Source: Proteinivorax hydrogeniformans
GTDB lineage: Bacteria; Bacillota; Proteinivoracia; Proteinivoracales; Proteinivoracaceae
Assembly: GCF_040515995.1 (NCBI RefSeq)
Contig: NZ_CP159485.1
Span: 496,001-560,000, forward strand
DNA length: 64,000 nucleotides
Direction: 5' to 3'
The position numbers were made by a program, and so were the translations under genes. The notes under the pieces were generated by a model that saw nothing but the letters and a program-made list of their open reading frames with translations, had not been told where the DNA came from and did not search any database. This document shows positions 13,159 through 34,306 of this stretch, one piece after another; within the stretch, counting starts at the first letter, position 1; each line of letters starts with the position of its first letter.

Positions 13159-13185
13159 TTAAGATTTCCATCAATCTTTCGATAT
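13159..13185 (+). promoter_or_regulatory. Sigma-D promoter for flagellin 1
   Basis: TTAAG (13159-13163) and TTCGATAT (13178-13185). The transcript would have a leader of about 105 bases containing a strong hairpin (GCTTTGATGCTAAG / CTTAGTATCAAAGC) and the CsrA-type sites. Confidence 0.7.
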
Positions 13186-13252
13186 ATATAATAGAAACAT
13201 TAAGCTTTGATGCTAAGACCGGCCGGCTTAGTATCAAAGCAATAAACTTAAA

Positions 13253-13287
13253 GGGCAAGGACGCCCAAAAACCAAAATTCAAGGAGG
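13253..13287 (+). promoter_or_regulatory. CsrA-type double site in flagellin 1 leader
   Basis: Site 1: GGGC-AAGGAC-GCCC (13253-13266), a hairpin that presents GGA in its loop. Site 2: CAAGGAGG (13280-13287) is the ribosome site itself. This is the arrangement known from the Bacillus hag leader, where a CsrA dimer bridges both and blocks translation. Confidence 0.7.
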
Positions 13288-13295
13288 AATTACAA

Positions 13296-15198: not shown

Positions 15199-18000
15199 AT
15201 GAAGCTAAGTATTGCGATGATGGTTAAAAATGAAGAAAAGTATTTGGGAGAATGCTTAGAAAGTTTAAGACCAATAATGGAAAGTATTGACTCGGAAATA
15301 ATTATTGTTGATACAGGTTCCACAGATAACACTGTAGAGATAGCAAAAAAACATACAAATAAAGTCTACTTTCATGAATGGAAAGATGACTTTGCGTATA
15401 TGAGAAATAAGACAATAGAGTACTGCAAAGGAGAATGGATCTTAATATTAGATGCCGATGAAATTGTTGAAAACTGTGATGGGATTATTAAATTTTTAGA
15501 ATCTAAGGAAAGCAACAAGTACAATACAGGAACCATAACAATAAAAAACATAACAACAGGTGACACTAAAAACTATTTTCCCATATTAATGATTAGGTTG
15601 TTTAGAAATAACAAGGAATTATATTATGAAGGGACTATCCATGAGCAGCCTAGATTTAAAAAACCTGTTTGTGAAGTGGACTTAAGTGTTTTCCATTATG
15701 GGTACCTATCAACAGATAAAGAACTTATGGAAATAAAGTTTAAAAGAAATACACAGTTATTAGAAAGAGAGCTTGAAAAAGATCCAACCAATGTATACAA
15801 CTTGTACCAACTTTCCAAGTCTTATGGTATGTATAAAGACCACAAAAAAGCATTGGAATTTTGTCTAAAAGCATTTGAAGCAGCTAAAAGACAAAAGCTG
15901 GATTTAAGCCGACGTATGTATATATACACAAATTTAGCGCTATCATATTACCTATGTAAAGACTATCTTAATGTGGAAAAAATAACAAAAGAGGCGCTAA
16001 AAGTGAGGGGTGGATATTTTGACCTTTACTTTTATCAGGGAAAAGCACAGTTAAGCTTAATGAAATATACAGAAGCAATTAACAGCTTTGAAAAGTATCT
16101 AGATGTCCTTGATAAATATAGTAATGAGAAAATAAAAAAGGATCCTACTGTTGCATATCGGACTTTAAACAGATATGAAGAAGTTTATTTAGATTTATGT
16201 ACGTTATATAGCAAACAAGGTAAACGAAAAAAGGCTCTGAATTTTTTAAAGAAGATGACAAAACAAAACATTAAAGAACTGGCTATAAAGCCTATGATTG
16301 AATTTTATATAGAACAGGATGACTTAGATGGGTTAAAGATTTTTTATGATAATCATATTTACAACAACTGCAACCTACAAAGGCTATTTTATAACCAGCT
16401 AGAAACTCTTTTAACCAATAAAGAGCAAAAGCAACACATAATAGAAGTTTTTAGTGAAGGCGAACCTAGCTATGCCCTTTTGAATAAAGTTAGAAGGTCG
16501 TTGCATGACAAAGAAAAATTGAATTACGAGGAGTTACAGTCGATAAACGATCTTGATTTTAATGAATTGCCTTGGTTTTACGGTGATGTTGTATATGCAC
16601 TTCTAAAAGATAATTATCCTATTATAAAAGCTAATGAAAGAACACTGGAAGTGTACATTAAGTACTTATTAAAAAACCATAAGTTATTTTATAAAGATGC
16701 TCTGAATTATCTACAAAAGAATAAAAGTAATATGGGTATAAATAGCTGTAAAGTAAAAAAAGTATTGGCACATGGGCTTTTAACTTACGCTCATGACCTT
16801 ATCAGCAAAAAAGATTTTTTACTTGCTTGGCAAGCTTATATAGAAAGTGGTACAAGCTATCTTTTAAATGTATATAATAGTAATGTCATTGGACAAGAAA
16901 GGATATATGACTTTAAGACAACTGAGGATCAGTTTATGTATTATATACTAATGGCTAACAGGTATAAATCAAAAAATCAAAAACTACATGTCAAAAACCT
17001 GCGCAAAGCTTTAAAGATTAAGCCGGAAATGAAAAAGGGCATAGAAATAATGTTAGAAGAAATAAAAGCAAAAACTCCAAAAGTTGATGATGAGTTAGAA
17101 AATGCAAAAGAGGAATTAAAACAAAGCATTAATAAATTGGTAGAAAAAGGTCTGCTAAAAGAAGCAAATAAAATATCAGATGAATATAAAAAGTTAGCCG
17201 GTGATGACATCGATTATTACTCAATAAAAGGTGTAATAGCAATGCTTGAGGGAAATTTTAAAATGGCAGAAAAAATGTTAAAAACAGGATTAGAAAAAGG
17301 TGAGAACTTTGATCTGCTATACAATCTTGGATATCTTTATCAATACAATAACCAAAAAGATTTGGCTATAGATTGTTACAAGAAAGCCCTTCATAATACA
17401 CAAGATAATAGCAAAATAGAAGAAGCTCATAATGCACTTGTTCAGCTTGGGGTAAAAGAAAGTAAAGATCAACTTTTACAATCGTTTAATCAAGAAGATT
17501 ATAAAAAAGATGATGGGGCAAATCTAGTTGCTTCAGATGAAATGGAAGAATATAAAAAAAAGTTTAAAAGCAATATACAAGCGCTAATAGAACAAGGAGC
17601 TTTAAAAGAAGCTAACGAAATCCTTATTGAGTATGAAAAAATTGTCGGCGATGATATCGATCTTTACTCTTTTAGAGGGGTTATAGCAATGTTAGAGAAC
17701 GAGTTTACTAAAGCAGAGGCTACCTTTAAAGAGGGGCTAAGCAGGGATAAGAATAGTTTTGATCTACTATATAATTTGGCATACCTATATCAGACTCTTA
17801 ACAAAAAAGAATTGGCAATTAGATACTACAGAGATGCATTAAAAAACTCTAGTACAGAAAGTGAGTCTATAGAAGTGTACAACATTTTAACAGGTTTAGG
17901 GGTAAATGAAAGTGAAAAGGGATTATTAGAAAAAGAGCTAAGTTCCAAGGAAATAATATTTGCAGAGAAGAAACTTAAAGAAAAATATATTCTTTGTTAA
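15199..18000 (+). CDS. Family 2 glycosyltransferase with TPR repeats
   Basis: 933 residues. Residues 1 to about 215 are a GT-A fold: SIAMMVKNEEKYLGECLESL start, VDTGSTDNT, and a LDADE motif (D85, D87) for metal and nucleotide-sugar binding. The rest is helical TPR-type repeats. The last 300 residues hold two ~150-residue copies of one module (about 630-775 and 780-925), each with a GDDID-Y-S..GVIAMLE and FDLLYNL.YLYQ core. The place directly after the flagellins suggests cytosolic glycosylation of flagellin, with the TPR part docking the substrate; that is inference. GT2-TPR proteins also occur in other surface pathways. Confidence 0.8.
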   Translation: MKLSIAMMVKNEEKYLGECLESLRPIMESIDSEIIIVDTGSTDNTVEIAKKHTNKVYFHEWKDDFAYMRNKTIEYCKGEWILILDADEIVENCDGIIKFLESKESNKYNTGTITIKNITTGDTKNYFPILMIRLFRNNKELYYEGTIHEQPRFKKPVCEVDLSVFHYGYLSTDKELMEIKFKRNTQLLERELEKDPTNVYNLYQLSKSYGMYKDHKKALEFCLKAFEAAKRQKLDLSRRMYIYTNLALSYYLCKDYLNVEKITKEALKVRGGYFDLYFYQGKAQLSLMKYTEAINSFEKYLDVLDKYSNEKIKKDPTVAYRTLNRYEEVYLDLCTLYSKQGKRKKALNFLKKMTKQNIKELAIKPMIEFYIEQDDLDGLKIFYDNHIYNNCNLQRLFYNQLETLLTNKEQKQHIIEVFSEGEPSYALLNKVRRSLHDKEKLNYEELQSINDLDFNELPWFYGDVVYALLKDNYPIIKANERTLEVYIKYLLKNHKLFYKDALNYLQKNKSNMGINSCKVKKVLAHGLLTYAHDLISKKDFLLAWQAYIESGTSYLLNVYNSNVIGQERIYDFKTTEDQFMYYILMANRYKSKNQKLHVKNLRKALKIKPEMKKGIEIMLEEIKAKTPKVDDELENAKEELKQSINKLVEKGLLKEANKISDEYKKLAGDDIDYYSIKGVIAMLEGNFKMAEKMLKTGLEKGENFDLLYNLGYLYQYNNQKDLAIDCYKKALHNTQDNSKIEEAHNALVQLGVKESKDQLLQSFNQEDYKKDDGANLVASDEMEEYKKKFKSNIQALIEQGALKEANEILIEYEKIVGDDIDLYSFRGVIAMLENEFTKAEATFKEGLSRDKNSFDLLYNLAYLYQTLNKKELAIRYYRDALKNSSTESESIEVYNILTGLGVNESEKGLLEKELSSKEIIFAEKKLKEKYILC

Positions 18001-18178
18001 AATAATCAAAGAGAAAACTATAAGAAATTTATTTATATCCTTGTAAATCTTCTGGCAATAACCAAAGGTACGGTTATTATCTAACTTGACGCTTGAGCTA
18101 TAACACTAAAAGTAACATGAAATTAGTTTAATTTAAAGTGTAAACATATTTTTAAATAACTTAATTTTTTTAAACATC
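18001..18178. other. Intergenic region with a small stem
   Basis: AT-rich; AATAACC / GGTTATT can pair at about 18056-18078, without a clear T-run. No promoter stands out. Confidence 0.3.
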
Positions 18179-18199
18179 TTGACTTATTGGAGGAAAAAT

Positions 18200-19666
18200 A
18201 TGATTCTTGAGAAGATAAAAAGTATCGATAGTTTAATAGTTACCATTAATAAAGTTTTAGAGAGAGTAATTAAAGGAGAATCTAATAAAATAGAAGCTTT
18301 TGTTGACTGTAGAGAAGCTGTTAATGTTATTTTAGAACAGCTTAAGGCGGAAGAAGCGCCTCCGGAAAATAGCATTAATCAACTTATTCACATTGATAAA
18401 AAATTAGAAGCATTCTCAAAGGAAGACCTAGCCAATAAAGGAAATATAAAAAAACTAATTAGAAAAATAGACTTAGTTCAAAACACCTTAAAAGAGGAAG
18501 TCGATGTAAAGCTAAAGGTGGTTTTTTTCCCTTATAAAGTTTCAATGTGGGACAGTTTAGAAAGTATTTATAAGGCTTTTATAAAAGATAAGAATTGTGA
18601 GGTTAGTGTTGTCCCAATTCCTTATTATCAACTTTCTCAAGAAAAAGCGATCCCAACCTATGAGGGAGACCGTTTTCCAGAAGATATACCTATCACTCAC
18701 TATAGTAAATACAATATTGAAGAAGAGAAACCAGACATTGTTTTTGTACACAATATTTATGACCAATATAATACTATCACACGTGTTGATGAAGAATATT
18801 TTACATCTAACATTAAGAAGTATACTGAAATGCTAGTATATGTGCCTTATCATCTAGCCTCTTTTTTCCCGCCGTACTCAAAAAATACGACATATGCACT
18901 ACCTTCTATTAATAACGTAGATAAAGTTGTTGTGCCAGGTAATTTTTTTAAAAAAATGGCTTTAAGGGATGGAATACCAAAGTCTAAACTTTTAAATTTA
19001 GGGTCACCTAAGATTGATTCTATGGTAAATAACTTAAAAAAAATCAAAATGTATCCTAATGAATGGAAAGAAAAACTTGATGGTAAAACAGTATATGTTT
19101 TAGATACAGGGTGTTTATATTTTGTTGAGGATCCCTTTGCCAGAATAGAGGAGATAACGAATATACTAAATATAACAAATGCAACCCAAAAGAGCGCCGT
19201 GATCTGGCGGCCTCATCCACTGACTAGAATCTCAATATTGAAGTATATTCCCCAACTATTAAAATATTATGATGACTTAATAGAGAACAAGATTAAAAAC
19301 AAGAATGGTATTTATAATAAAGTTATCTTTGATGAAACCGATAATTACTTATATGCATTAAATGCTGCTGATGTATTGATTGCAAGAAATGGATCTTTAA
19401 TGAGAGTTTATACCCTTACTGGAAAGAAAATCATCTTACTTAACGATAAAATGCCAAAAGGTTCAGCGGTACAAAACAATGTTTTTTATTATTTTTATAA
19501 TAAAAAAGAGTCAATGCACGAACTTGTTGAGAAAATTAATGAAGGATACGACCCACTAGCTAAAAATCGAAAAGAATTAGCTGCTAAAATCTATAAAAAT
19601 ACAGATGGAACTTGCGGAGAGAAAGTTTATGCGACTACAAAGAAGATAATGTTAAAAAGGTCATAG
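18200..19666 (+). CDS. CDP-glycerol glycerophosphotransferase-like protein
   Basis: 488 residues from ATG 18200, which follows TTGGAGGAAAAAT; an in-frame TTG at 18179 has no ribosome site. About 110 N-terminal residues are helical and acidic, followed by a GT-B-like domain. Seen features: VVFFPYKVSMWDSLESIYKA at its start, a central NVDKVVVPGNFFKK segment, and WRPHPLTR and ARNGSLMRVYTLTGKKII near the donor site. The pattern fits the TagB/TagF-SpsB family that transfers polyol phosphates. Beside flagellins such proteins may decorate flagellin or surface glycans; the substrate cannot be read from sequence. Confidence 0.65.
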   Translation: MILEKIKSIDSLIVTINKVLERVIKGESNKIEAFVDCREAVNVILEQLKAEEAPPENSINQLIHIDKKLEAFSKEDLANKGNIKKLIRKIDLVQNTLKEEVDVKLKVVFFPYKVSMWDSLESIYKAFIKDKNCEVSVVPIPYYQLSQEKAIPTYEGDRFPEDIPITHYSKYNIEEEKPDIVFVHNIYDQYNTITRVDEEYFTSNIKKYTEMLVYVPYHLASFFPPYSKNTTYALPSINNVDKVVVPGNFFKKMALRDGIPKSKLLNLGSPKIDSMVNNLKKIKMYPNEWKEKLDGKTVYVLDTGCLYFVEDPFARIEEITNILNITNATQKSAVIWRPHPLTRISILKYIPQLLKYYDDLIENKIKNKNGIYNKVIFDETDNYLYALNAADVLIARNGSLMRVYTLTGKKIILLNDKMPKGSAVQNNVFYYFYNKKESMHELVEKINEGYDPLAKNRKELAAKIYKNTDGTCGEKVYATTKKIMLKRS

Positions 19667-19949
19667 TGCTTTAGTCACAATATGGATCTACTATATAAGG
19701 AATTCTAAAATATTAAGCAATACGAGAGTAGAGCGCATTATACTATGAGTTGTAATGTGTAGATGATTATAATTTCAGTATAAGAAGAAAAAGAGGTTGA
19801 ATTACTATGAATCCAACCTCTCCATAAATTAATCCATAACTAAAATAGCCATCTGAGGGTATAGGGGTAATAAGGTATCGTAAGATTAGAGAAAAACATT
19901 TTTTTACGTTATTTAAATACTAAAATGTGGCCGAAAGGAGCTGTATTTC
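19667..19949. other. Intergenic region with an inverted repeat
   Basis: AGAGGTTG (19792-19799) and CAACCTCT (19814-19821) form a stem with a 14-base loop, no T-run after it. Otherwise nothing recognised. Confidence 0.35.
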
Positions 19950-20324
19950 ATGAACATAGAAAACTACGAAGAAGTACTGAAGCAGGTTTTTGACCTATCA
20001 GGGACATTACAGGAAGCTCTTGTGAGTGTTAATGTAATGTTAGAAGATGGGCAGATACAAGATGCTGTTACTGTTACTGATGACATCAAAGCAGCGCTAG
20101 AATCAATTGATGATTCGTTAGAGCCAGTATTAGAAGAGCTGCAAGCTAGAAATCTATCAAATATAACTACAGAGCTAAAAGAACAAGTAACTAAGGCTAA
20201 GGTTGATTTAGCAATGGATAATAGTGATAAGTTGAAGGAAGATTTAAAGAATGAAATATTTCCTAAGTACATTGTGTGGAAGGAAGAGGTTGATAAGGTT
20301 TTAAAACCTTATGTTATGCAATAA
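19950..20324 (+). CDS. Small acidic helical protein
   Basis: 124 residues, ribosome site AAAGGAG. Predicted all alpha, strongly acidic, without motifs I recognise. Its plan (repeated ~25-residue helices with ALESIDDSLEPVLEEL) resembles the N-terminal helical part of the CDP-glycerol transferase-like protein just upstream, which hints at a shared module or partner role in the same modification pathway. Function unknown. Confidence 0.6.
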   Translation: MNIENYEEVLKQVFDLSGTLQEALVSVNVMLEDGQIQDAVTVTDDIKAALESIDDSLEPVLEELQARNLSNITTELKEQVTKAKVDLAMDNSDKLKEDLKNEIFPKYIVWKEEVDKVLKPYVMQ

Positions 20325-20472
20325 ATGCATAATCATCACTACAAAGGCTGAGGGGATAATCCTTCGGTCTTTTAGTATATCCAACTCTACCATGGATCTT
20401 TTAGTTTGAGAAAAGCTTATTTTTTTGTAACAGATGTGTAACAGGGGGACAGGAATGCTCATCCCCATCTCC

Positions 20473-20540
20473 GGTAACAGAAGGGACAGGTACGACTGTA
20501 CGCAGAGAGGCGCTAGCAGCATACCGGTCCCTTTGTTACC
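20473..20540. repeat. 68-bp palindrome, family J copy 1
   Basis: Ends GGTAACA-G-AAGGGAC and GGTCCCTT-TGTTACC pair across the unit; the inside holds GTACGACTGTAC and GCTAGCAGC. Other copies at 21271-21338 and 30038-30108. Seen only in the 20-30 kb zone, unlike the island repeats. Confidence 0.8.
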
Positions 20541-20550
20541 TGGGCGTGTA

Positions 20551-20613
20551 TAACAGGGGGACAGGAACCTTGTTACATTTTCCATGTATAACAGGGGGAC
20601 AGGAACTTTGTTA
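20551..20613. repeat. Two short GTTACA-type palindromes, family I
   Basis: Two 25-bp units TAACAGGGGGACAGGAAC..TTGTTA (20551-20575 and 20589-20613) in direct order. Further copies or remnants at 21147-21171, 21351-21375, 25534-25558, 26052-26075, 26990-27016, 29962-29978 and 29982-30006. They share TAACA/TGTTA ends with the 68-bp units and probably belong to the same REP-like family. Confidence 0.75.
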
Positions 20614-20923
20614 CATTTTCCATGCAGAACAAAACCACCTAGAACTCCTGACCAACTGACCAACTTTCTGCTGCACTATTCCCCGTCAGTTTATGATTAG
20701 CAATATATTTCCGGGTTTGTAGGGGAGCAGTACCTGCTCCCGCACCTAACGTTTGCGGTCTAAAGCGGACAGCTACTGAGGTCCCAAATTGGTATCAAAT
20801 CCAGACCCCGATGGACTCATATGGTATAATATTATTAATAGGAGGAAAATAAAGCAAATTTTAAAAAACTAAGAAAACAAGAGTAAATGCAAGAAAAACT
20901 AATATTATATAGGGGGAATTTAT

Positions 20924-21139
20924 GTGGATATTACTAGTCAATCAAAAGAGGAAACAATTAAAGAAACAGAAAGATTTAAAGCAATCACTAATAATTCCTT
21001 TGATATTTTAACTATAACGGCAAAAGATGGTACTATTTTGTTTGAAAGTCTTGCTACCGAAAGGGTTTTAGGGTATAAAGCAGGAAAAGGAGTAGGGAAA
21101 AATATACTTGAATTTGTGCATCCTGATGATAGGGTATAA
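20924..21139 (+). pseudogene. PAS-domain sensor fragment cut off at a repeat
   Basis: 71 residues from GTG 20924 (GGGGGAA before it). A short helix leads into a PAS domain (FKAITNNSFDILTITAKDGTILFESLATERVLGYKAGKGVGKNILEFVHPDD). The frame stops 8 bases before a GTAACAGGGGGACAGG unit, exactly where a PAS domain would continue. No continuation is found beyond the repeat. It is most likely the 5' remnant of a sensor kinase or diguanylate cyclase gene. Confidence 0.7.
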
Positions 21140-21270
21140 AAACCTGTAACAGGGGGACAGGAACTTTGTTACATTTTTACCTAACATTTTGTTGTTGAGC
21201 TGTTTCTTTTTTTATTCTTTGTTCTCTGGTAACAAAGTGCTAGCTGCTTTTAATGCTCAACCCCATCTCC

Positions 21271-21338
21271 GTTAACAGAAGGGACAGGTACGACTGTACG
21301 CTGAGAGGCGCTAGCAGCATACCGGTCCCTTTGTTACC
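21271..21338. repeat. 68-bp palindrome, family J copy 2
   Basis: Same unit as 20473-20540, starting GTTAACAGAAGGGACAGG and ending GGTCCCTTTGTTACC. Confidence 0.8.
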
Positions 21339-21375
21339 TGGGTAGTAGAATAACAGGGAGACAGGAACATTGTTA

Positions 21376-21960
21376 CATTTTATATCGGTTATGCAATGAC
21401 GTACCTAGCTTGATACTCTGAGGTTTTTGTTTTAAGAACTAGCTTTTGAATCCAGAAATATTTTACATAACACTAAAACCAAGAATCATCACAATGGGAG
21501 AGTCTAGCAATGATTTAACAACCGTTCAGCAACTGCTTGACCATGGGCTTAAAGGTTAATGTCTTTACAGTGTACGCCCTTACAGTGCGTGTTTTTACCG
21601 TGGGAAAGCTCTTTTGTTTCCAAGGTCGGTCTTAAAATTGTCAATTCACCCTTGAATTCAACCGGCCCTTAATAACCGTGCGTTTTACTGTGGGTAAACA
21701 AAGCTTTTGAACTTATGGATTGACAATTTTAAAACCCAGTTGGATATAAGATGGTTAGGATTGTTGGATAGGCAAAACTCTTAGGGGGATTTTCTTTAAG
21801 GAGTATAAAGACGGGAATCTTACATGCTTATATACTAAAACACTGTTTTCTAAAAAGGCATATTCAAGGGTCTTTTTTTTAGCTTAAATTTTATGCAGTC
21901 TTGGGAACTGTTAGCAACACCGTTGAACTATAAAAATATTTCAAACAGGAAATGATTAGT
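21376..21960. repeat. Non-coding region with a segment duplicated at 27 kb
   Basis: About 21382-21615 is repeated nearly unchanged at about 27023-27265 (starting ATCGGTTATGCAATGACGTACC, containing AACTGCTTGACCATGGGC and ending in a TTTACAGTG...TTACCGTGGG set). The remainder to 21960 shows no gene; several TTTACAGTG/TTTACCGTG words recur within it. Confidence 0.7.
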
Positions 21961-21962
21961 GT

Positions 21963-21991
21963 TTGACAGTACAAACCATAATTGGTATAAT
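21963..21991 (+). promoter_or_regulatory. Consensus sigma-A promoter of the accessory operon
   Basis: Perfect TTGACA (21963-21968), 17-bp spacer, perfect TATAAT (21986-21991), 40 bases before the next start codon. Strong constitutive promoter by sequence. Confidence 0.85.
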
Positions 21992-22030
21992 ATAAAATAA
22001 CGTCAGCAGCTTAAATCATGGAGGGGTTTT

Positions 22031-22924
22031 ATGCAACAAAAAGTTGTTTTATTAAAGGAAGAGAAAAAAATATTTGAAATGAAAGTAAAGCCTGCAAAGC
22101 ATAGTAAATTAGGAGAATTAGACATAATAATTAATTCAGGCAAAGGATTATATTTTGATCATGTTATTTTAGGTGATTATTTTAGAGAATATAAGTTGCC
22201 AGATCAAGAGGTTAACTCCCTAAGTTGGCATGGGTATTATGAAAACTGCGGCAGCGACAGTATATTAAAAGCCCCCGTTGTACATATAAAAAGTCATGGT
22301 AGAAAGATTGATAAAGTGAATCATTTAGGCAGTATTAATATGGCAGAACCCATTGCCATTCCGGTGTGTAGCATTTATGTACCTAATAATTTATCTACTG
22401 AAGGTATAGGTTCTACAAAGAAGCAGGGAGAGAAAAATTCTTATATTGATATAGAAGATACTGAGGCTTCTGTATCTAGCAGGTACGATTTTTTCATATT
22501 ACCGAAAGAAATTCCAGTTTACAAATTCAAAGGTAGCCCACTGATGTGTTTTTATAAATTTGCTGACCTAGAATTATTTAATAGTCCAAATAAGGGATTT
22601 AACATAATCCGTAAGCCCGATATATTGGATGATATTAAAGGGGGAACTAATGGTATCTTAGTAAGATTGGTAAGAAATCCGGCAGATATACATAAGCATT
22701 CTGATGATGGAAAGCAGATATTTCATGAAGTAAGCCATAAATTTTCACTTATTATTAATGATCCTAATGATATATACAACAAAATGGCCGGTAGAAATGT
22801 TATCGAGGTCAATAAAGAGAACAAATCAACGGAAGTTTACCATTTAAAAGATGCCCATGAGGATGCCATAAACTTTAAACCCAAATTGCAGCTTAAAATC
22901 TGGGATGGGTTTGGGAATAGTTAG
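22031..22924 (+). CDS. Uncharacterised protein in the HsdM/HsdS-like cluster
   Basis: 297 residues, GGAGG ribosome site, driven by a consensus promoter. I do not recognise the family. It looks globular and soluble, mixed alpha/beta, with no membrane segment or signal peptide. Clusters such as HGYYENCG, HIKSHGR and HKHSDDGKQIFHEVSHKF are rich in His and could bind metal, but no known catalytic motif is evident. An HsdS-like and an HsdM-like gene follow, so a role in the same defence-type system is possible, though 146 bases and a possible second promoter separate them. Confidence 0.6.
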   Translation: MQQKVVLLKEEKKIFEMKVKPAKHSKLGELDIIINSGKGLYFDHVILGDYFREYKLPDQEVNSLSWHGYYENCGSDSILKAPVVHIKSHGRKIDKVNHLGSINMAEPIAIPVCSIYVPNNLSTEGIGSTKKQGEKNSYIDIEDTEASVSSRYDFFILPKEIPVYKFKGSPLMCFYKFADLELFNSPNKGFNIIRKPDILDDIKGGTNGILVRLVRNPADIHKHSDDGKQIFHEVSHKFSLIINDPNDIYNKMAGRNVIEVNKENKSTEVYHLKDAHEDAINFKPKLQLKIWDGFGNS

Positions 22925-23070
22925 TGTATGGTTATAAAAGAAAAAATTACTATAGTGAGCGTTTAAGTTCTAAGGCGGATGTTAAAAGGGTTTTATTTTT
23001 TTTCAAACATTTTGTTATATAAAAAATATTTCCAAAGAGAAATTGAATAATAAAAAAGAGGTGACGTGTT

Positions 23071-23661
23071 GTGAAAATTTCGCAGGTAGCTAAAATGATT
23101 CACTCAGGGCAAATTATTACCAGAGTGGAGGCTAAAGAGCAAGCTGGAGACGAAGTTATTGATGAAAAAAAAGTGCTTGTACCTAAGGCGATTTCAAATG
23201 GGAGGGTTATTGCTTCAGAGCTTGGTAAGGTTAAGTTAAAAAAGCATGTCAACAAAAAAAGAATAACCCTAAAAGGGGATATTTGTGTAAAGTTGTCTAA
23301 TCCATATGATGTAACCTATATAAAAAGTGAAGATGAAGGGTTGGTAGTGCCGTCATTCTGTGCCATTATCAGGAGTTTAGATACTACTAAAATTGATCCT
23401 TGGTTTTTAACCGCTTTTCTTAACACAGACTATATTGTGGAACTTTTAAAATCAAGGGTGTCGGGGTCTGTGATGCCGATGATAAAAATTGCCGATCTTA
23501 AGGAGTTAGAGATACCTAATATTTCTATAGAAAAACAAAGGGAAGTAGGGCAAGCTTTTGCGATAAGCACCGAAAAACAACAAGTCTTACAACAAATCCA
23601 AGAAAATGAGAACAACATCATTAAATCCATTGTTGTTAACGCTGTTAAGGAGGCAAAGTAG
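23071..23661 (+). CDS. Type I restriction specificity-like protein, single TRD
   Basis: 196 residues from GTG 23071 after AGAGGTGA. One target-recognition-like domain (roughly 60-150: ..LKGDICVKLSNPYDVTYIKSEDEGLVVPSFCAIIRS..DPWFLTAFLNTDYIVELL..GSVMPMIKIADLKELEIPNIS) plus one helical conserved region (IEKQREVGQAFAISTEKQQVLQQIQENENNI). Full HsdS has two TRDs; half-size proteins act as dimers in some systems (e.g. BcgI-like or split S subunits). The next gene starts one base after its stop codon, so it forms a tight pair with the HsdM-like gene. Confidence 0.75.
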   Translation: MKISQVAKMIHSGQIITRVEAKEQAGDEVIDEKKVLVPKAISNGRVIASELGKVKLKKHVNKKRITLKGDICVKLSNPYDVTYIKSEDEGLVVPSFCAIIRSLDTTKIDPWFLTAFLNTDYIVELLKSRVSGSVMPMIKIADLKELEIPNISIEKQREVGQAFAISTEKQQVLQQIQENENNIIKSIVVNAVKEAK

Positions 23662-23662
23662 C

Positions 23663-25063
23663 ATGGATAGAAAGCAAGAAATATCTAAAACATTTGACTA
23701 TATTTATAAAAAATTTTGCACGAGGAATTTAAGGGAAGCAACAAAAAATGAACCAATGCCTGTAGCGTTATTGTTTATGTTTTTGAAATACGTATCAGAT
23801 AACAAGGATAGATTGGGGCTTGAATTTGAGGAAAAGTATGAGTTTGATTTCTTGACTCTAATTTATGACAAAAAAATATCTTATAGGGATTTAATTGAGC
23901 ATATAGCTAAGGTAGAAAGGCAGTTAGGGTTCTATAATGGCATTTTAAAAAAGTTTGCACAAAGCAGTGATTTGTCAAGCTTCGGAGATGATATAGTTGA
24001 AGTGCTGGAGGAAATAAATTTATTAAACCTTAAAAGCGAAGGGAAAAGTAGGTTGGTGTACGATGTGGTTGTAGAATATTTTTCAGCCCAATCTACAAAG
24101 GAGCTTAGATTCCCAGATGAATCAATAACAAATATAAGTTTATCCAAACTAATAGCAAGGGTCTCTGATGTTAATGAAGGTATGACGATATATGACTTTT
24201 CTGTGGGCTATGGAACTACCTTAATCGAAGCTACTAGAGGGCATAGGTGTAAGCTATATGCTCAAGACAAAGATTTAGCCAGTGCTGCTGTGGCAATTAT
24301 GTTGATGGTTATGAGTGAAAATAGGGATGCTACGGTTTACTGTGATGACTCAATATTTAATCCGTTGACATTAATAGAAAAAGACATGACATTTGATAGG
24401 GTTGTAGCAGTACCGCCCTTTGGGATTAAGATCGACAGTTTAGATAGCAATAAAGCCAAAGAGTTGGAAAACTCCTTTATTTATGGTTCAAATTTTAAAA
24501 TAAGAGGAGATTTTATATTTGCAAGACATCTATTGGTAGCTTTAAAGGAAGGAGGTATAGGTTCTATTATCATGCCAATGGGGACACTTTTTAGAAAGGG
24601 GGAGGAAGGTAAACTAAGAAAAAAGCTTTTAGATGATAACTATATTGATACTGTAGTGGAGTTACCAGAGGGTATAATCCAAGGAACAGCTATAAAGGTA
24701 GCCTTGGTAAATTTCAAAAAGGGCAGAACTGATGAAGATGTATTTATAGTTGACTTAAGCAAAGAAAAAACAAAGCACTACTTCGAGCCCGACGGCAGGG
24801 CAAGTAAAAAGATCAAAGATAGCGCTTTACAAGACATATCTAAACTAATACTTCAAAAGAAAGAAATAAAAGGAATAGCTAAACTCGTGGACAAAAAAGA
24901 AATTTACAATAACGACACAAACCTATGCGCAGGCGTCTACATGCCTCCAGAGTTAGAAGACCTGACCGTTGATAATGTAGAACATTTGATGGAGAAAAAT
25001 AATAAGTTGTATAAGGAGCTATATAGGTTGGATGAGGAGTTTAGGGGTGTGGTGGAAAAGTAA
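23663..25063 (+). CDS. HsdM-like N6-adenine methylase with altered motif IV
   Basis: 466 residues from ATG 23663. An N-terminal helical HsdM-type domain is followed by an SAM-binding Rossmann domain: motif I reads YDFSVGYGTT, and motif IV reads AVPPFG where active enzymes have (N/D/S)PP(Y/F). The catalytic Asn is thus Val250. The rest (FARHLLVALKEGGIGSIIMPMGTLFRKGEEGKLRKKLLDDNYIDTVVELPEGI) is well conserved, so the gene is not simply decaying. It may bind SAM or DNA without methylating. No HsdR gene is near. Confidence 0.78.
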   Translation: MDRKQEISKTFDYIYKKFCTRNLREATKNEPMPVALLFMFLKYVSDNKDRLGLEFEEKYEFDFLTLIYDKKISYRDLIEHIAKVERQLGFYNGILKKFAQSSDLSSFGDDIVEVLEEINLLNLKSEGKSRLVYDVVVEYFSAQSTKELRFPDESITNISLSKLIARVSDVNEGMTIYDFSVGYGTTLIEATRGHRCKLYAQDKDLASAAVAIMLMVMSENRDATVYCDDSIFNPLTLIEKDMTFDRVVAVPPFGIKIDSLDSNKAKELENSFIYGSNFKIRGDFIFARHLLVALKEGGIGSIIMPMGTLFRKGEEGKLRKKLLDDNYIDTVVELPEGIIQGTAIKVALVNFKKGRTDEDVFIVDLSKEKTKHYFEPDGRASKKIKDSALQDISKLILQKKEIKGIAKLVDKKEIYNNDTNLCAGVYMPPELEDLTVDNVEHLMEKNNKLYKELYRLDEEFRGVVEK

Positions 25064-25085
25064 AGATAAAAAAGGAGGAGTTAGT

Positions 25086-25526
25086 GTGGAGAAAGATTTT
25101 ATTATTGGAAAACCTGATAACTACGAAAAGCTTAAGAGAATGGCAAACAATAAAGTGTCTTGGCGGAATCGACTTGAAGCAGTAGAAGAGTTGGGTAAGT
25201 GGAAGTGCAGACAGTCAGTTGATGTTTTATTCCGTAGGATGATGAGCGATAAAGTCTTTAAAGTACAAAATGCAGCTTTTTTAAAGCTTCAAGCATTTGG
25301 GGAAAATGTCAAACTTCCTAAGAAGAAAAAGGGGAACTTAGTAAAAAATATAAATAAAAAATTAGGTACTATTAAGCGCTCACTGCCAGAAGAGCATTCT
25401 TATGAAGAGTTTAAACAAGAATTTAAACAGAAAAGATCAGTAGAATTTGATATTTACGAAGGGGACAAAGAAGAAAGATTTGATAAGTGGCTTCGTAACG
25501 TATGGTTAAACATACCTAAAGAATAA
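25086..25526 (+). CDS. Small HEAT-repeat-like protein
   Basis: 146 residues from GTG 25086, seven bases after AAAGGAGG and 22 bases after the HsdM-like gene, so same operon. The first half has two HEAT/PBS-like helix pairs (WRNRLEAVEELGKWKCRQSVDVLFRRMMSDKVFKVQNAAFLKLQAFG), the second half is basic then acidic. Such proteins often act as scaffolds. Function in the cluster is unknown. Confidence 0.65.
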   Translation: MEKDFIIGKPDNYEKLKRMANNKVSWRNRLEAVEELGKWKCRQSVDVLFRRMMSDKVFKVQNAAFLKLQAFGENVKLPKKKKGNLVKNINKKLGTIKRSLPEEHSYEEFKQEFKQKRSVEFDIYEGDKEERFDKWLRNVWLNIPKE

Positions 25527-25736
25527 TATTTATGTAACAGGGGCACGAACCTTGTAACACTACTAAGGAAACAAAAATAATTGGATAAAAGTTCGTAGAT
25601 GAATATTTGTAACTGTATAAGAACAGATAATTTTATTGTAAGCCTCAGTATAACCTTGGCTATATAGAAAAAACATAATAGACAATTGACTCTAAGGTGA
25701 TATGAACTCAAATCATAATAAATTAGGAGGGAAAAT

Positions 25737-25976
25737 ATGTTAGTTAAAAAAGTAGATGTAAGTAATGAATATAGACATGAAATACAAAGTATTTCAGATA
25801 AATTAACCCAACTTGAAGAAGTTAGGATTTATGAATTTTCACACGCTCAAATGGATGGTTACCTTGCAACAAATATTGAGCAATTGAGAAGAATGCTATC
25901 AGAACTAATTTATAAGGTTGAATATGATAAGGGCTCAATAATAGATGATGAGATAGCTGAAGCCTTTAGGAATTGA
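25737..25976 (+). CDS. Small hypothetical protein (79 aa)
   Basis: Good AGGAGGG ribosome site before ATG. Helical, mixed charge, no motif recognised (ends EYDKGSIIDDEIAEAFRN). A degenerate GTAACAGG unit lies between it and the HEAT-like gene, so it may be transcribed separately. Confidence 0.5.
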   Translation: MLVKKVDVSNEYRHEIQSISDKLTQLEEVRIYEFSHAQMDGYLATNIEQLRRMLSELIYKVEYDKGSIIDDEIAEAFRN

Positions 25977-26413
25977 AAGCTCTTAATAAATTTAACTGAC
26001 TCTCCACTGCCTTTGCCTATATCAAAGTCTAAAAGCGGAAATGATAATATATAACAGGGGACAGGTGCCTTATTACATCCTAGTACATAATCCTACCTAT
26101 GATTTCTGATTAGTATGTATATAATAAAAGGGCTGCTTGACAATTGCAAATGGACTTTTATATTATAAAACTTGGAGAATATTTCAGCTATAAGATGAAG
26201 GTGAACCACTAAAATTTCATAACCTAGTTGGAGTATGAAATTTGCAGAACTACTTAGGGATAGCACACGGCAGAAGAACGCTGTAGTAAGTAAGAAAAGC
26301 TAATCTTATGGTTGGTTCTTTTTTGTTAGAAAATTGTATAAAAGCTGGAGAATAAGAAGGTATTTAAATAAGTTAGCCGAAATTTTATAGTATGGGTTAG
26401 AGGAAACTTAACA
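25977..26413. ncRNA. Intergenic region, possible structured RNA near 26150-26330
   Basis: No gene. AAATTTCAT (about 26214) can pair with ATGAAATTT (about 26237), and CTACTTAGGG...AGTAGTAAGTAAG sequences nearby can pair weakly; the stretch ends TGGTTGGTTC-TTTTTT, terminator-like. A GTAACA-type unit lies at 26052-26075. No known RNA family is recognised; this is only a candidate. Confidence 0.25.
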
Positions 26414-26437
26414 ATGTTTAAATGGGAGGTGATAGAG

Positions 26438-26977
26438 ATGATGACGAAAGGAGATTTTTACTGTGGAGCCTTTTTATCTTTTCTATTAAACAATGGGATT
26501 ATGCCAGCTCTTTTTGAAGAGCGTATAGACATTAATAGAAAAATATATGATTTTACAACGAATAAAGATGATTTTAGAGTTTATGTAAAGTACTCAGAAA
26601 AACCTTCTAGTGAAAGTGAGTCAAAAGGTAGTTCAATATGGAATTTCCCATTTACAGATATCCAACTTGATGAAATTAAAGATATAAGATCTACAGATAA
26701 TAAAAAATTATACTTTGCATTTGTATGTGGTAGATTATCATTAAACAAAAGTAGAATTGCACTAATATCACACGACATAGTACTTCAGTGCATTGAATTA
26801 AATAGGACTGCTAAATATAAAGATCAAAGTGTTAAAATTAGACTCATAAAAGGGCACTGGAATTTTGATGTCTATGGAACAAAAAGGGCAGATAAATTAG
26901 AAGGTCAGGATAACACGTTAAAAGTGCGCGTTAAAAATATGGATGAGATTTTTGGAATAAAACAGGATTGTGGATAG
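26438..26977 (+). CDS. Uncharacterised protein (179 aa), possibly nuclease-like
   Basis: Ribosome site GGGAGGTGAT with ATG at 26438 (or 26441). Seen: a D-F-R-V-Y-V-K-Y-S strand after F-T-T-N-K, then IWNFPFTDIQLDEIKDI and KLYFAFVCGRLSL. A D-x(n)-x-V-K strand pair of this kind is seen in PD-(D/E)xK-like proteins encoded near restriction systems, but the acidic residue placement is not convincing. Treated as unknown, in a defence-rich neighbourhood. Confidence 0.6.
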   Translation: MMTKGDFYCGAFLSFLLNNGIMPALFEERIDINRKIYDFTTNKDDFRVYVKYSEKPSSESESKGSSIWNFPFTDIQLDEIKDIRSTDNKKLYFAFVCGRLSLNKSRIALISHDIVLQCIELNRTAKYKDQSVKIRLIKGHWNFDVYGTKRADKLEGQDNTLKVRVKNMDEIFGIKQDCG

Positions 26978-27550
26978 CTGAATTTAACTGTGACAGGGGA
27001 ACAAAGACCTTGTTACATTTACATCGGTTATGCAATGACGTACCTGGCTTGATACTCTGAGGCTTTTGTTTTAAGAACTAGCTTTTGAATCCAGAACCAT
27101 TCTACATACCACTAAAGCCAAGAGTCATCACAATGGGAAGTTAGAAGCGGGAATGGGAGAGCCTAGCAATGATTTAACAACCGCTCAGCAACTGCTTGAC
27201 CATGGGCTTAAAGGTTATATCTTTACAGTGTACGCCCTTACAGTGCGAGGTTTTACCGTGGGAAAATGTTTTTGGCTTGGGTTAGTTTTGTGGGTTAGCA
27301 GGTGGCAGATGGGAAATTCTTTAGGGACGCAGACAGTTTAATGTAAGATTTTACTGTCTATGTGTGCTTTTATGGTACAGAGGACTTTCACCGTAAAGTC
27401 AGCTCAAAATGATGGGCTTACGCCCAAGATTCTTCACTTCGTTCAGAATGACAGGCTTTTTGGACTTAGGATTTAATCTTTACAGTGCGTGGTCTTGCCG
27501 TGGGAAAGTTAGTTTTAACTTGAGTTAGTTTTGTTAGCATTATAAAAAAA
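26978..27550. repeat. Repeat gap upstream of the EcoRII-type system
   Basis: Contains a GTGACAGGGG unit (26990-27016), the second copy of the segment also found at 21.4 kb (about 27023-27265), a reverse-oriented GATTCTTCACTTCGTTCAGAATGACA motif (about 27430-27454) and several TTTACAGTG/TTACCGTG words. No gene is supported here. Confidence 0.7.
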
Positions 27551-27552
27551 CT

Positions 27553-27612
27553 ACGAACAATTGTTCTGCAATCTATAGACAATTGTTCGTTTCTGGTATA
27601 CAATAGGTATAT
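27553..27612 (+). promoter_or_regulatory. Paired operator over the methyltransferase promoter
   Basis: Perfect 12-bp inverted repeat: ACGAACAATTGT (27553-27564) and ACAATTGTTCGT (27579-27590). Each arm contains the small palindrome CAATTG, their centres 22 bp (two helix turns) apart. The first arm also completes GAAC-AATT-GTTC, a LexA-like box. An extended -10 (TGG-TATACA, 27594-27602) starts four bases after the second arm, so a bound protein would block the promoter. The adjacent protein carries a ribbon-helix-helix domain. Confidence 0.65.
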
Positions 27613-27635
27613 AAAAATTACCAGGAGTGTTGGAT

Positions 27636-28784
27636 ATGAAAAAGCAAATACATATAAAATTACCAGATAGGTTACATCAAGAACTTGTCGATTTTACGAA
27701 TAACAATGATAAAACTATCCAAGAATATGTTGTCGAGACTTTGGATGAAAAATTAAAAGAACAAATAACTATGTATGAATTCATTAAAAAGACAAAGGAT
27801 AAAAACTCTGAGTTTACATTTATAGATCTATTTGCAGGCATAGGTGGAATGAGGCTGGGGTTTGAAAGGGTAGGCGGAGAGTGTGTTTTTACCTCTGAGT
27901 GGGACAAGTTTTGTCAGCAAACATACTATGAAAATTTTGGGGACATGCCTGAAGGGGATATAACAAAAATTGATGAAAAAACCATACCTGATCACGACAT
28001 ATTATTAGCTGGATTCCCTTGTCAGCCTTTTTCAATAGCCGGGGTTTCAAAAAAGAATAGCCTAGGAAGGGAGCATGGCTTTCTAGATAAAACTCAAGGA
28101 ACCTTATTTTTTGATATTATACGAATCCTTAAAGAGAAAAGGCCGAAAGCCTTTTTATTAGAGAACGTAAAGAACCTTACTACCCACGACAAGAAGAAAA
28201 CCTTTAAAATTATAAAAGAAGCATTGGAAAGTTTAGATTACAAAATAAGCTATCAAGTAATGAATGGTAAGCACTATGTTCCCCAGCATAGAGAGCGAAT
28301 ATACATTGTAGGTATTGATAAGAAAGTCTTTGGGGAAGAGGATTTGTTCCATTTTCCTGAGATAAGTGACGTAAACCGTGCAGTGCAAGACATATTAGAA
28401 GAGGAAGTGGACAAAAAATATACTTTAACTGATAGGCAGTGGGACTATTTGATAAGGTATAAAGAGAAACATCAGGCAAAAGGGAATGGTTTTGGATATG
28501 GTTTAGCTCCACTTGATGGAATTACAAGGACCTTAAGTGCCAGATACTATAAAGATGGTTCTGAAATTTTAATACCACAAGCAGGTAAAAACCCAAGGAA
28601 ACTAACTCCTAGAGAATGTGCTCGCTTACAGGGGTTTCCTGATAGTTTTAGGATTGTAGTATCAAACACTCAAGCCTATAAACAATTTGGCAATTCGGTA
28701 GTTGTACCACTTATAGAGGATCTGGCAAAACAAATTAAAGCTGTCATAAAGTTATCAGAATTAAAAGAAGGTCAAAGCGCATAG
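27636..28784 (+). CDS. C5-cytosine DNA methyltransferase with N-terminal ribbon-helix-helix domain
   Basis: 382 residues from ATG 27636 (CAGGAG eight bases upstream). Residues 1-45 (KKQIHIKLPDRLHQELVDF...TIQEYVVETLDEKL) are a textbook ribbon-helix-helix fold. Residues from about 60 on are an m5C methyltransferase: FIDLFAGIGG (I), FPCQPFS with nucleophile C129 (IV), ENV (VI), QHRERIYIVG (VIII), RECARLQGFP (IX) and QFGNSVVVPL (X), all intact. It protects host DNA from the endonuclease encoded 20 bases downstream, and the N-terminal domain probably represses its own promoter. Target is likely CCWGG or CCNGG from the endonuclease family; this is inference. Confidence 0.92.
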   Translation: MKKQIHIKLPDRLHQELVDFTNNNDKTIQEYVVETLDEKLKEQITMYEFIKKTKDKNSEFTFIDLFAGIGGMRLGFERVGGECVFTSEWDKFCQQTYYENFGDMPEGDITKIDEKTIPDHDILLAGFPCQPFSIAGVSKKNSLGREHGFLDKTQGTLFFDIIRILKEKRPKAFLLENVKNLTTHDKKKTFKIIKEALESLDYKISYQVMNGKHYVPQHRERIYIVGIDKKVFGEEDLFHFPEISDVNRAVQDILEEEVDKKYTLTDRQWDYLIRYKEKHQAKGNGFGYGLAPLDGITRTLSARYYKDGSEILIPQAGKNPRKLTPRECARLQGFPDSFRIVVSNTQAYKQFGNSVVVPLIEDLAKQIKAVIKLSELKEGQSA

Positions 28785-28804
28785 AAAACAATGGGGGGAT
28801 GGGA

Positions 28805-29956
28805 ATGTCTGCGATACTGGATAAGGCTATAGACGCATGTCGAAATAATTCTTTAGCATTTTGTAAATTTGTATCGGCTAATGATGTAGGGGCAACTGGG
28901 ACTCACCAGGCGGGGATATATATTCCAAAAAACTCCTATGAGATACTATTTGATAGACCTGGAGTGAAAGGTGAAAATAAGGACAAATATGTAAAAATTA
29001 GATGGCAAGATGATTTTGAAACAGACAGTAGGTTCATTTGGTATGGAAGGGGAACTAGAAGTGAGTATAGAGTTACTCGTTTTGGAAAAGGCTTTCCGTT
29101 TCTTCAAGATGAATATTTAGGAGACTTATTTGTCCTTGTTAAGGTTGGACACGAATTTTATACAGGGTTTGTGATAAGTGGTGATGAAGAAATAGAAAGC
29201 TTTCTTTCTGCGTTTAGCATGTCGCCGTCTGATACAAATGCCTTAATAAAAAGAAAAAGCATACAAACTTTAGAAGAAATCTTCCTGAACTATTTGGGGA
29301 ATTTGCAATCTGACTTTCCTACTACTTACGAGTTAGCAAAAGCAGCAAGGGAAATTTATATAAAAATTAAACAGGGTAAAAAGCTTTCTTCAGCTGATAA
29401 GACAATAATACAATGGCTTGATATTGAATATCAACTTTTTAAAGCCATCGAAAACGACAGATATAAAGATATTATTTCAAAACCCTTTGAATCAGTAGAT
29501 GAACTAATTAGGTGTGCAAACACAATGCTTAATAGAAGAAAAAGTAGGGCAGGTAGGTCATTAGAACATCACTTAGAGGCGTTGTTTAATTGTTATAGGA
29601 TTTCATATAGTGCTCAGGCCAGAACAGAAGGTAATAAGAAGCCGGACTTTATATTTCCCAGTGAAGAAGCTTATCATAACTTGAGCTTTCCTCAAGAGCA
29701 CCTTACCTTTTTAGGGGCTAAAACCACTTGTAAAGATAGATGGAGGCAAATATTAAACGAAGCAGACAGGATAGAAAATAAACACCTACTTACTTTGCAA
29801 CAAGGAATATCAAAAAATCAATTAATGGAAATGGAACAGAATAAAGTCACCCTTGTTGTACCTAAAGATTATATATCAAGCTTTCCATCAGAGTTTAGAA
29901 CTAAAATTCTTACTATAGAAGTGTTCTTGAAAATGCTAATGGAAAGGAAACGATAG
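28805..29956 (+). CDS. EcoRII-type restriction endonuclease
   Basis: 383 residues; ATG 28805 lies six bases after GGGGGG (ATG 28799 is in frame too). N-terminal EcoRII-N-like effector domain (FCKFVSANDVGATGTHQAGIYIPK) and C-terminal catalytic domain: RAGRSLEHHLEALF, KPDFIFPS and FLGAKTTCKDRWRQI, the PD...xAK type active site of the EcoRII family, followed by HLLTLQQGIS. EcoRII is a type IIE enzyme that needs two recognition sites and cuts before CCWGG. The preceding methyltransferase completes a type II system; the endonuclease seems to depend on the methyltransferase promoter. Confidence 0.9.
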   Translation: MSAILDKAIDACRNNSLAFCKFVSANDVGATGTHQAGIYIPKNSYEILFDRPGVKGENKDKYVKIRWQDDFETDSRFIWYGRGTRSEYRVTRFGKGFPFLQDEYLGDLFVLVKVGHEFYTGFVISGDEEIESFLSAFSMSPSDTNALIKRKSIQTLEEIFLNYLGNLQSDFPTTYELAKAAREIYIKIKQGKKLSSADKTIIQWLDIEYQLFKAIENDRYKDIISKPFESVDELIRCANTMLNRRKSRAGRSLEHHLEALFNCYRISYSAQARTEGNKKPDFIFPSEEAYHNLSFPQEHLTFLGAKTTCKDRWRQILNEADRIENKHLLTLQQGISKNQLMEMEQNKVTLVVPKDYISSFPSEFRTKILTIEVFLKMLMERKR

Positions 29957-30128
29957 CAAATGTAACAGGGGGACAGTGCATGTAACAGGGGGATAGGAAC
30001 CTTGTTACATTTACCTAGCACCTACATCCCCATCTCCGTTAACAGAAGGGACAGGTACGGCTGTGCGCTGAGAGGCGATAGCAGCATACCGGTCCCTTTT
30101 TTGTTACCTGGGCGTGTAACAGGGATAC
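29957..30128. repeat. GTAACA-type repeat cluster after the endonuclease
   Basis: Two GTAACAGGGGGA units (29962-29978, 29982-30006), the third 68-bp palindrome (30038-30108) and a half unit GTAACAGGGATAC (30117-30129). It marks the right edge of the zone in which this family is found. Confidence 0.75.
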
Positions 30129-30310
30129 ATGGACAGGCTTAAATCAAGGGCGAATTTACAATTGACATTTGACAACGAAACCCTGCTTCGTGTTCGGTTA
30201 GTATATAGGTTATATTATGCTTTTCGCCTAGCTATGGATAGGCGGTTGTGCTACGTTCGAAAAAGCAACAAAGCCAGAGGGAAGAAACTTCTTTCTGGCT
30301 TTATTACTTT
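30129..30310 (+). ncRNA. Possible small structured RNA ending in a terminator
   Basis: TTGACA occurs at about 30162 and TATAT-type words follow. GCTTTTCG / CGAAAAAGC (about 30219-30266) enclose a GCCTA...TAGGC stem, then AAAGCCAGA (30270-30278) pairs with TCTGGCTTT (30294-30302) around a GAAG/CTTC inner stem, before TTACTTTTT. An open frame across it (30129-30314) has no ribosome site and is not supported. RNA family not recognised. Confidence 0.3.
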
Positions 30311-30389
30311 TTAACTAGTGGAGTGCGGTAGTTTCTTTTTCTTTACTAAAGTCGTATTGCTTAAATTAAGTTAACAAAATATAATTAAG

Positions 30390-30416
30390 TTAAGAGATTA
30401 TAAAATATGCCGATAT
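30390..30416 (+). promoter_or_regulatory. Sigma-D promoter for the second yvyF/flaG pair
   Basis: TTAAG (30390-30394) and a perfect GCCGATAT (30409-30416): the best match in the window to the flagellar sigma consensus. Confidence 0.82.
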
Positions 30417-30465
30417 ATTAAGTATAGGTATATTGCATTATATTTGAGAAATTAGGTGAGTGAGG

Positions 30466-30765
30466 TTGAAACTTGGCAACTGTAGAAAATGTGGTAAGAT
30501 TATGTACTCCAATGGTTATTTCATGTGTAGCGAATGCAAGGCTGAAGAGTATAGCTCGTATAAGCTTGTTCGCGATTATGTTTATGATAACAAAGGAGCG
30601 ACGGTGTTGGAGGTAGCTGAGGCTACTGGTGTTGATAAATCGGTTATATTACGTTATGTAAAAGAAGAGAGGTTATCATTATTAGATGATCGCTCAATTC
30701 TGCCTCGTTGTCGAGTGTGCGGTGCTTTTGTAGATAACGGCGAGGTCTGCGATAGCTGCAAATAA
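30466..30765 (+). CDS. YvyF paralogue
   Basis: 99 residues from TTG 30466 (GGTGAG five bases upstream); GTG 30460 is in frame as well. Same plan as YvyF at 4289: CRKC...CSEC knuckle, helix-turn-helix-like middle (ATVLEVAEATGVDKSVILRYVKEERL) and CRVC...CDSC knuckle, but without the C-terminal tail. The sigma-D promoter shows that it belongs to the motility regulon although it lies far from the main operon. Confidence 0.8.
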   Translation: MKLGNCRKCGKIMYSNGYFMCSECKAEEYSSYKLVRDYVYDNKGATVLEVAEATGVDKSVILRYVKEERLSLLDDRSILPRCRVCGAFVDNGEVCDSCK

Positions 30766-30780
30766 AAAGAGGTGATGATA

Positions 30781-31080
30781 ATGAAGATAAATAACAGCAG
30801 TCTTAACTTAAGTACATATAGTAGGAGTTTACAAAACTTATTTAAGGGTAAGCTTCCTAAGGCAGCACCAACTCAAGTAGATAAGGTGGAGGATGTAAGC
30901 TCTCATGGATTGAAAAGCAATCATAGAGTAAGTTATACCTACAATAAAGATTTAAAAAGAAATATAGCCCACGTCATCGATAATTCCACCGGAGAAGTCG
31001 TAAGAAAGAGAATCTCAGATGCCGAAGTTGATAGGATGCTCAGAACCAAGAGGTTAATGGAACTAGGGGATGAACGGTAG
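30781..31080 (+). CDS. FlaG-like small protein
   Basis: 99 residues from ATG 30781 after AGAGGTGAT, 15 bases after the YvyF paralogue. The C-terminal half (YTYNKDLKRNIAHVIDNSTGEVVRKRISDAEVDRMLRTKRLMEL) aligns by eye with FlaG; the N-terminus is short and Ser-rich. Probably co-transcribed from the sigma-D promoter. The stop codon lies at the first unit of an 11-bp array, so the original 3' end may have been altered. Confidence 0.6.
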   Translation: MKINNSSLNLSTYSRSLQNLFKGKLPKAAPTQVDKVEDVSSHGLKSNHRVSYTYNKDLKRNIAHVIDNSTGEVVRKRISDAEVDRMLRTKRLMELGDER

Positions 31081-32629: not shown

Positions 32630-32673
32630 ACCCGGCCCCTGTCAAGTAGACAATGGAAATAATAAAAATTATA

Positions 32674-33513: not shown

Positions 33514-33554
33514 TTCTTTAATAGCAATATATTTGTTTTCTTGTCTTACTCTGT

Positions 33555-34238: not shown

Positions 34239-34306
34239 AATATGCCCCCTAAAACTGTAGATTTTTTTATTTTGTGTGTCTACTTAATAGGGAGCATATC
34301 ATTCTG

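Follow-up and report, generated by a model that had tools for sequence, protein, structure and literature searches.

A catalytically degenerate HsdM-like protein paired with a half-HsdS in Proteinivorax hydrogeniformans, a candidate companion of type I restriction systems

What is the role of a type I modification pair whose methyltransferase subunit has lost its catalytic motifs, whose specificity subunit is only half the usual size, and whose restriction subunit is missing? The question is raised by a locus of Proteinivorax hydrogeniformans that lies in the window, by which we mean the whole stretch of 64,000 nucleotides that was analyzed, positions 496001 to 560000 of a 2.83-Mb genome; unless stated otherwise, coordinates below are window positions. 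An initial annotation had described an HsdS-like protein with a single target recognition domain (TRD), an HsdM-like protein, a HEAT-like protein, and a 297-residue protein without HsdR, and all four genes were indeed found to be intact open reading frames, with no hsdR in the 20 to 32 kb of the window that was checked at the locus. The HsdS-like and HsdM-like proteins appear to form a catalytically dead HsdM/half-HsdS module of type I ancestry, and its most likely role, to which we give about an even chance, is that of a type I companion subunit or regulator. The pair and the altered motifs are located as follows.

23071-23661, plus strand: half-HsdS ("short S") with one TRD, 196 amino acids; intact open reading frame, GTG start
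23663-25063, plus strand: HsdM-like protein, 466 amino acids, catalytically degenerate; the mechanical open reading frame starts at 23606
24122-24130, plus strand: degenerate motif X, SIT replacing FYT of (A/G)GEFYTP in the alignment (FYTP to SITN)
24194-24214, plus strand: degenerate motif I, DFSVGYG replacing DPxCGSG in the alignment (DPxxGSG in the family)
24410-24421, plus strand: degenerate motif IV, VPPF replacing NPPF in sequence and alignment, with V250 at 24410-24412

The HsdM-like protein (below, the window HsdM) matches the Pfam family N6_Mtase at 1e-43. Its AlphaFold model is good only for residues 156 to 250 and 282 to 466, with an evident methyltransferase fold, and the nearest solved folds are PacII M1 (7vs4/7vru; 27% identity, fold search) and the HsdM of S. 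thermophilus (3lkd). The VPPF reported for motif IV was confirmed. Against a comparison set of 21 catalytic HsdM sequences, which includes the catalytic M of the loci that carry the fusions described below, motif IV reads N/D/S-PP-[FYW] in 20, and motifs X, I, and IV are all intact in 17. The accompanying statement that the surrounding sequence is well preserved was only partly right, since motifs X and I are lost as well and 14 of the 37 family-invariant positions outside the motifs have changed. In all, the window HsdM retains 7 of 12 invariant positions in the motifs and 23 of 37 elsewhere, where catalytic members retain nearly all, and its C-terminal half keeps most of them. The loss of three motifs rules out a point mutation in an active enzyme. 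Nor did we find close homologs with the asparagine in the same gene order; the half-S and M pairs with NPPF that were recovered are 24 to 34% identical to the window pair and have motifs X and I intact. In TspGWI, replacement of the asparagine at the same position (NPPY to APPY) abolishes methylation (PMC3968444). The window HsdM is thus predicted to be a fast-evolving pseudo-methyltransferase, on a very long branch of 2.8 changes per site that has nevertheless accumulated no stop or frameshift.

The half-HsdS matches the PADLOC model Specificity_I at 2e-12 and Pfam Methylase_S at 4e-4, just below the cut-off. Its best matches are other half-S proteins (32% identity, up to 77 bits), as opposed to at most 38.5 bits with full-length HsdS, and by sequence it is to be placed with the short-S kind. 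In complete loci, among them one in the same genome and those on Arcobacter plasmids, such half-S genes immediately precede a catalytic hsdM. In the hsdRSMS system of S. xylosus, methylation requires the short S, which does not represent a swapped half of the long S (PMC10030836), and a similar short-S gene has been noted in BlihIA of B. licheniformis (PMC12429846). The window resembles this variant in having a half-size S directly upstream of hsdM, here with a gap of 1 bp, and in that its half-S matches half-S proteins far better than full HsdS, just as the S. xylosus short S is unlike the halves of the long S. It differs in that the variant has a catalytic M, a long S, and R, whereas the window has a dead M and lacks the other two. 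The contrast with standard type I systems is wider still, as these have intact motifs X, I, and IV, an HsdS with two TRDs, and HsdR in the locus, where the window has SIT, DFSVGYG, and VPPF, a single TRD in 196 amino acids, and no HsdR. Weak matches of M to MAD2 and of S to MAD5 of the MADS system fell far below the curated cut-offs (40 versus 400 bits), with no other MADS gene, and that assignment was rejected.

Proteins with an equally dead HsdM were found elsewhere, fused at the C terminus to a half-HsdS. The starting point was a 624-amino-acid protein at locus G042, with DLPF as motif IV and a C-terminal half-S, flanked by a SEFIR/TIR gene on one side and a complete M-S-R set on the other. 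Related fusions were found on plasmids, where those of Salimicrobium (WP_008591562.1), Lactococcus (WP_282670593.1), Pseudoalteromonas, and P. crassostreae are annotated as "N-6 DNA methylase" and one from Subdoligranulum is unannotated. A profile built from these proteins recovered fusions in 12 of 396 genomes, all of one phylum, that of the window, and G042 included, which brings the total to 17. Motifs X, I, and IV are all broken in 18 of 18 dead proteins, that is, the 17 fusions and the window HsdM. Motif IV of the fusions reads NFPF, VPPF, HPPL, FPPI, DLPF, DYPF, SIPF, NIPF, NLPL, DFPF, NFPS, DIPR, DAPF, NCGF, NFPL, DPPM, or RVPS, so that the VPPF of the window recurs in one of them, from Lactococcus (FDKVVQVPPFG versus FDRVVAVPPFG in the window), and the others vary. 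Eleven of the 17 fusions lie directly upstream of M, S-size, and R-size genes; the R genes of the plasmid records are annotated as such, and those of the same-phylum genomes were inferred from size and order, neighbors there being judged by size and profile hits. Four have no M-S-R set beside them (P. crassostreae plasmid L066, G358, G311, and G074), and two fall outside this count, one of them on a contig that is too short. The fusions of G009 and G056, which are 72% identical, gave a dS of 0.93 and a dN of 0.16; with a dN/dS of 0.18, this dead methyltransferase is under purifying selection and maintained. The proposal of a maintained, non-methylating complex is in this sense well supported in kind by the sequences of the 17 fusions, of which one has VPPF and one pair the dN/dS just given. 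No published description of dead HsdM-half-HsdS fusions was found in the literature covered, which excludes subscription journals and preprints, so that one may exist.

Because dead methyltransferases lie beside many type I systems, they are probably non-methylating DNA-recognition or control subunits. A broader claim, which we advance tentatively and somewhat short of an even chance, is that dead HsdM with half-HsdS constitutes a widespread, maintained, and unnamed type I component, seen in roughly 3% of the genomes sampled from the phylum, that would act as a non-methylating DNA reader controlling or triggering restriction and could detach and live alone, as here. Among solved structures, Esub1 (PDB 8vsq, 8vsr) has a half-S-like chain of about 200 residues that matches the half-S of the fusions (3e-18; 2e-17 with the family profile); the window S alone gave no match to Esub1 at 0.01. 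An active Vibrio vulnificus HsdM-half-HsdS fusion (PDB 7eew), thought to dimerize into an M2S-like assembly (PMC12429846), is like the window in combining HsdM with one TRD, but it is a methyltransferase according to the PDB and the window M lacks its motifs. The idea that a fusion and its neighboring system share a target was dropped, as the S of the same locus was never the best match of the fusion's half-S. Three further observations concern neighbors of dead fusions. A SEFIR/TIR protein (L061:6596-8041) is encoded immediately 5' of a fusion with a complete type I locus; a 491-amino-acid protein made of an N6_Mtase piece, a half-S, and an HSDR_N nuclease-like domain (L102:4209-5684) lies two genes upstream of another; and a PBECR-type nuclease-like gene (L101:3693-4106) adjoins a solo fusion, with an Eco57I-like methylase beyond.

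The window pair shares with the fusions the three broken motifs, the half-S, and, for three fusions, a neighboring gene of the 187-amino-acid family described below, and it shares VPPF with that of Lactococcus. In a tree of 21 rows the window HsdM grouped with the dead fusions (91/96), but this was dropped as proof of kinship when a larger tree moved it. Several points weigh against reading the pair as one of these companions. In the tree of 39 rows, the window HsdM falls inside the catalytic HsdM proteins (91/68), with long branches throughout, and a single dead clade, which a tree test did not reject (p 0.45), is not shown by it either. In the window, S and M are encoded by two genes, with S first, whereas each fusion is a single chain that starts with M and ends in the half-S, and most fusions lie upstream of M-S-R. 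The pair has no catalytic M, S, or R next to it, its best S and M matches are the short-S/M pairs of complete loci, and the sister species G004 carries the same complete locus but lacks the module. Selection on the window HsdM itself is unmeasurable, because the scans made found no ortholog: none at 1e-45 in 398 same-phylum genomes, while pattern scans that covered viral contigs and 84,980 species genomes also gave none, their short exact peptides being liable to miss relatives. The pattern scans reach near relatives only, and the alignments behind two of them (A1 and A2) contain artificial rows that steer the search patterns. On sequence grounds, the window pair would be either a split, solo relative of the fusions or the result of an independent loss of catalysis in a short-S/M locus; under both origins it would be a solo dead M with a short S.

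Two observations put a companion or regulator role first, the gene order in the relatives and the presence of a complete short-S locus in the same genome. This single complete type I locus, 0.24 Mb from the module, carries HsdR and has the order AbiJ-domain gene, short S, M (NPPF), S, R-size gene, YgjP-size gene; the part that runs from the AbiJ_NTD4 protein through short S and M to S lies at L039:3078-7401 (279 to 283 kb of the genome). Half-S proteins dimerize (PMC6158711; PMC12429846). By analogy with established type I structure, two half-S subunits could dimerize and be clamped by two copies of the window HsdM, or they could join the resident M-S complex; with M bound to the helices of S, the complex would read a DNA site without marking it. 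As a companion subunit it might then tune or extend type I restriction, acting in trans on the complete locus, or the window HsdM might take the place of one M in a mixed complex, with the HEAT-like and 187-amino-acid proteins as possible add-on partners. Alternatively, the module may have been left as a solo DNA-binding unit. The module might also be a sensor of incoming DNA, as suggested earlier; the position of the fusions upstream of M-S-R fits a companion or regulator at least as well.

The neighboring features are the following.

21347-21616, plus strand: bracketing repeat, left copy, about 270 bp, with sub-blocks 85 to 97% identical to 26987-27274
21963-21991, plus strand: sigma-70-like consensus promoter 5' of the 297-amino-acid gene, 12 of 12 matches, 17-bp spacer, extended -10
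22031-22924, plus strand: intact open reading frame of 297 amino acids, no recognized family
25086-25526, plus strand: HEAT-like protein, 146 amino acids, GTG start behind AAGGAGG, third gene of the tight run
26414-26977, plus strand: 187-amino-acid protein, relative of genes adjoining dead-M fusions
26987-27274, plus strand: bracketing repeat, right copy, paired with 21347-21616

The gaps of 1 bp between S and M and of 22 bp between M and the HEAT-like gene define a tight S-M-HEAT run, for which the proposed operon holds; its extension to the 297-amino-acid gene is unproven, with 146 bp separating that gene from S. The consensus promoter claimed for the 297-amino-acid gene was borne out. This gene may be co-transcribed with the run, and nothing links it to the function of the run; the suggestion that its product is the effector was not supported, as the sole relative found, in 1 of 398 genomes (39% identity, interrupted by a single TAG in frame), stands without neighboring M, S, or HEAT genes. 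Profile searches gave no family match for the protein, its fold model was unusable (pLDDT 31), and a type IV restriction assignment was discarded, one weak PADLOC match (0.006) being without support. It is the spacing that places the HEAT-like gene in the run. The HEAT_2 match of its product is weak (4e-5, below the cut-off), and its relatives form a stand-alone family, found on small plasmids, often beside a replication gene, and on 7 chromosomes without M or S; a fixed partnership with M and S was not seen in the 7 chromosomal and 7 opened plasmid loci. On 3- to 5-kb plasmids of Staphylococcus and Acinetobacter (L015-L018), members adjoin the replication gene, in one case together with an orphan hsdS; in lactobacilli they lie near ArdC-like genes, and one is found between genes of terminase and portal size in an apparent prophage, as judged by size (L034:9537-9965). 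An anti-restriction or establishment role is possible for the family. The 187-amino-acid protein shares 41 to 42% identity with the product of the gene that immediately precedes the fusion in G009 and G056, and 30% with that of the gene just downstream of the Salimicrobium fusion. A viral contig that also carries an integrase and an HNH-like gene, and no dead M, encodes a 190-amino-acid protein with 74% identity to the window protein (L109:4986-5558); an exclusive tie to dead M was therefore dropped, and the family is a partner of dead M and not a marker for it.

All five genes (297-amino-acid, half-S, HsdM-like, HEAT-like, and 187-amino-acid) are enclosed by the two repeat copies of about 270 bp, which are one repeat among many in the region. 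Copies resembling GGGGACAGGAACCTTGTTACAT recur between genes at 20435-20622, 21143-21384, 25529-25566, 26057-26078, 26987-27024, and 29979-30016, and the sister genome contains tens of copies of a sub-element from 34630-34680. The small frame that had been guessed at 25738 was closed in the frame tried. The flanks are flagellar genes common to the sister species G004 (1779-14150 and 34782-37215 match), and the stretch of restriction genes between them is not present in that species. Positions 15199-34782 form a hypervariable stretch inside a flagellar cluster, different in G004, in which a FlaG-like pair (30460-31080) is kept.

Of the other explanations, two are unlikely to a similar degree. 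In the first, the dead M and half-S would work alone as a defense or sensor module, recognizing unmodified or foreign DNA and signaling to an adjacent partner (the HEAT-like, 187-amino-acid, or 297-amino-acid protein). It draws on the four dead fusions that have no M-S-R set, on the SEFIR/TIR gene 5' of one fusion and the PBECR nuclease-like gene 3' of another, and on the setting of the window pair among restriction genes, an EcoRII-type pair of a C5 methyltransferase and an EcoRII endonuclease (N and C domains) lying directly downstream at 27627-29956. However, family searches recognized no effector domain in any of the three candidate partners, and relatives of all three occur alone elsewhere. 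The second, which we likewise consider improbable, is that the pair is what remains of a decaying short-S/M/S/R locus after the loss of the long S and R, with frames surviving by chance. Decay agrees with S and M having their best matches in the short-S/M pairs of complete loci, with the loss of 40% of family-invariant residues both in and outside the motifs, and with the failure to find an ortholog. Against it stand four frames that are intact, closely spaced, and preceded by good ribosome sites, a branch of such length free of stops and frameshifts, a C-terminal half that keeps most invariant residues, and the purifying selection on dead relatives. An active methyltransferase with an unusual site, or a mixed complex with a catalytic partner M in the manner of the M1/M2 of PacII, is very improbable: D178, GxG, Q201, D227, and PPF of the S-adenosylmethionine/target pocket are retained by alignment and two-M systems are known (PMC9613975), but motif IV has valine for asparagine, motif I has lost its DP and motif X is gone, the APPY form of TspGWI, a related enzyme, is inactive, and no second M adjoins. 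PacII M1M2S (7vru/7vs4), the closest solved fold, differs from the window HsdM in that (A/G or A)EF and NPPF/NPPY are present in both of its M subunits.

On the reading that we prefer, that of a type I companion or regulator, the window M-S pair would be expected to bind DNA but be unable to mark it. Because databases label such proteins as "N-6 DNA methylase", methylome predictions count them as active, and they are very likely inactive. The finding bears on the published open question of what short HsdS proteins do (PMC10030836, PMC12429846). Type I systems are treated as consisting of R, M, and S, and the recurrence of a dead M with a half S beside them suggests an extra subunit.

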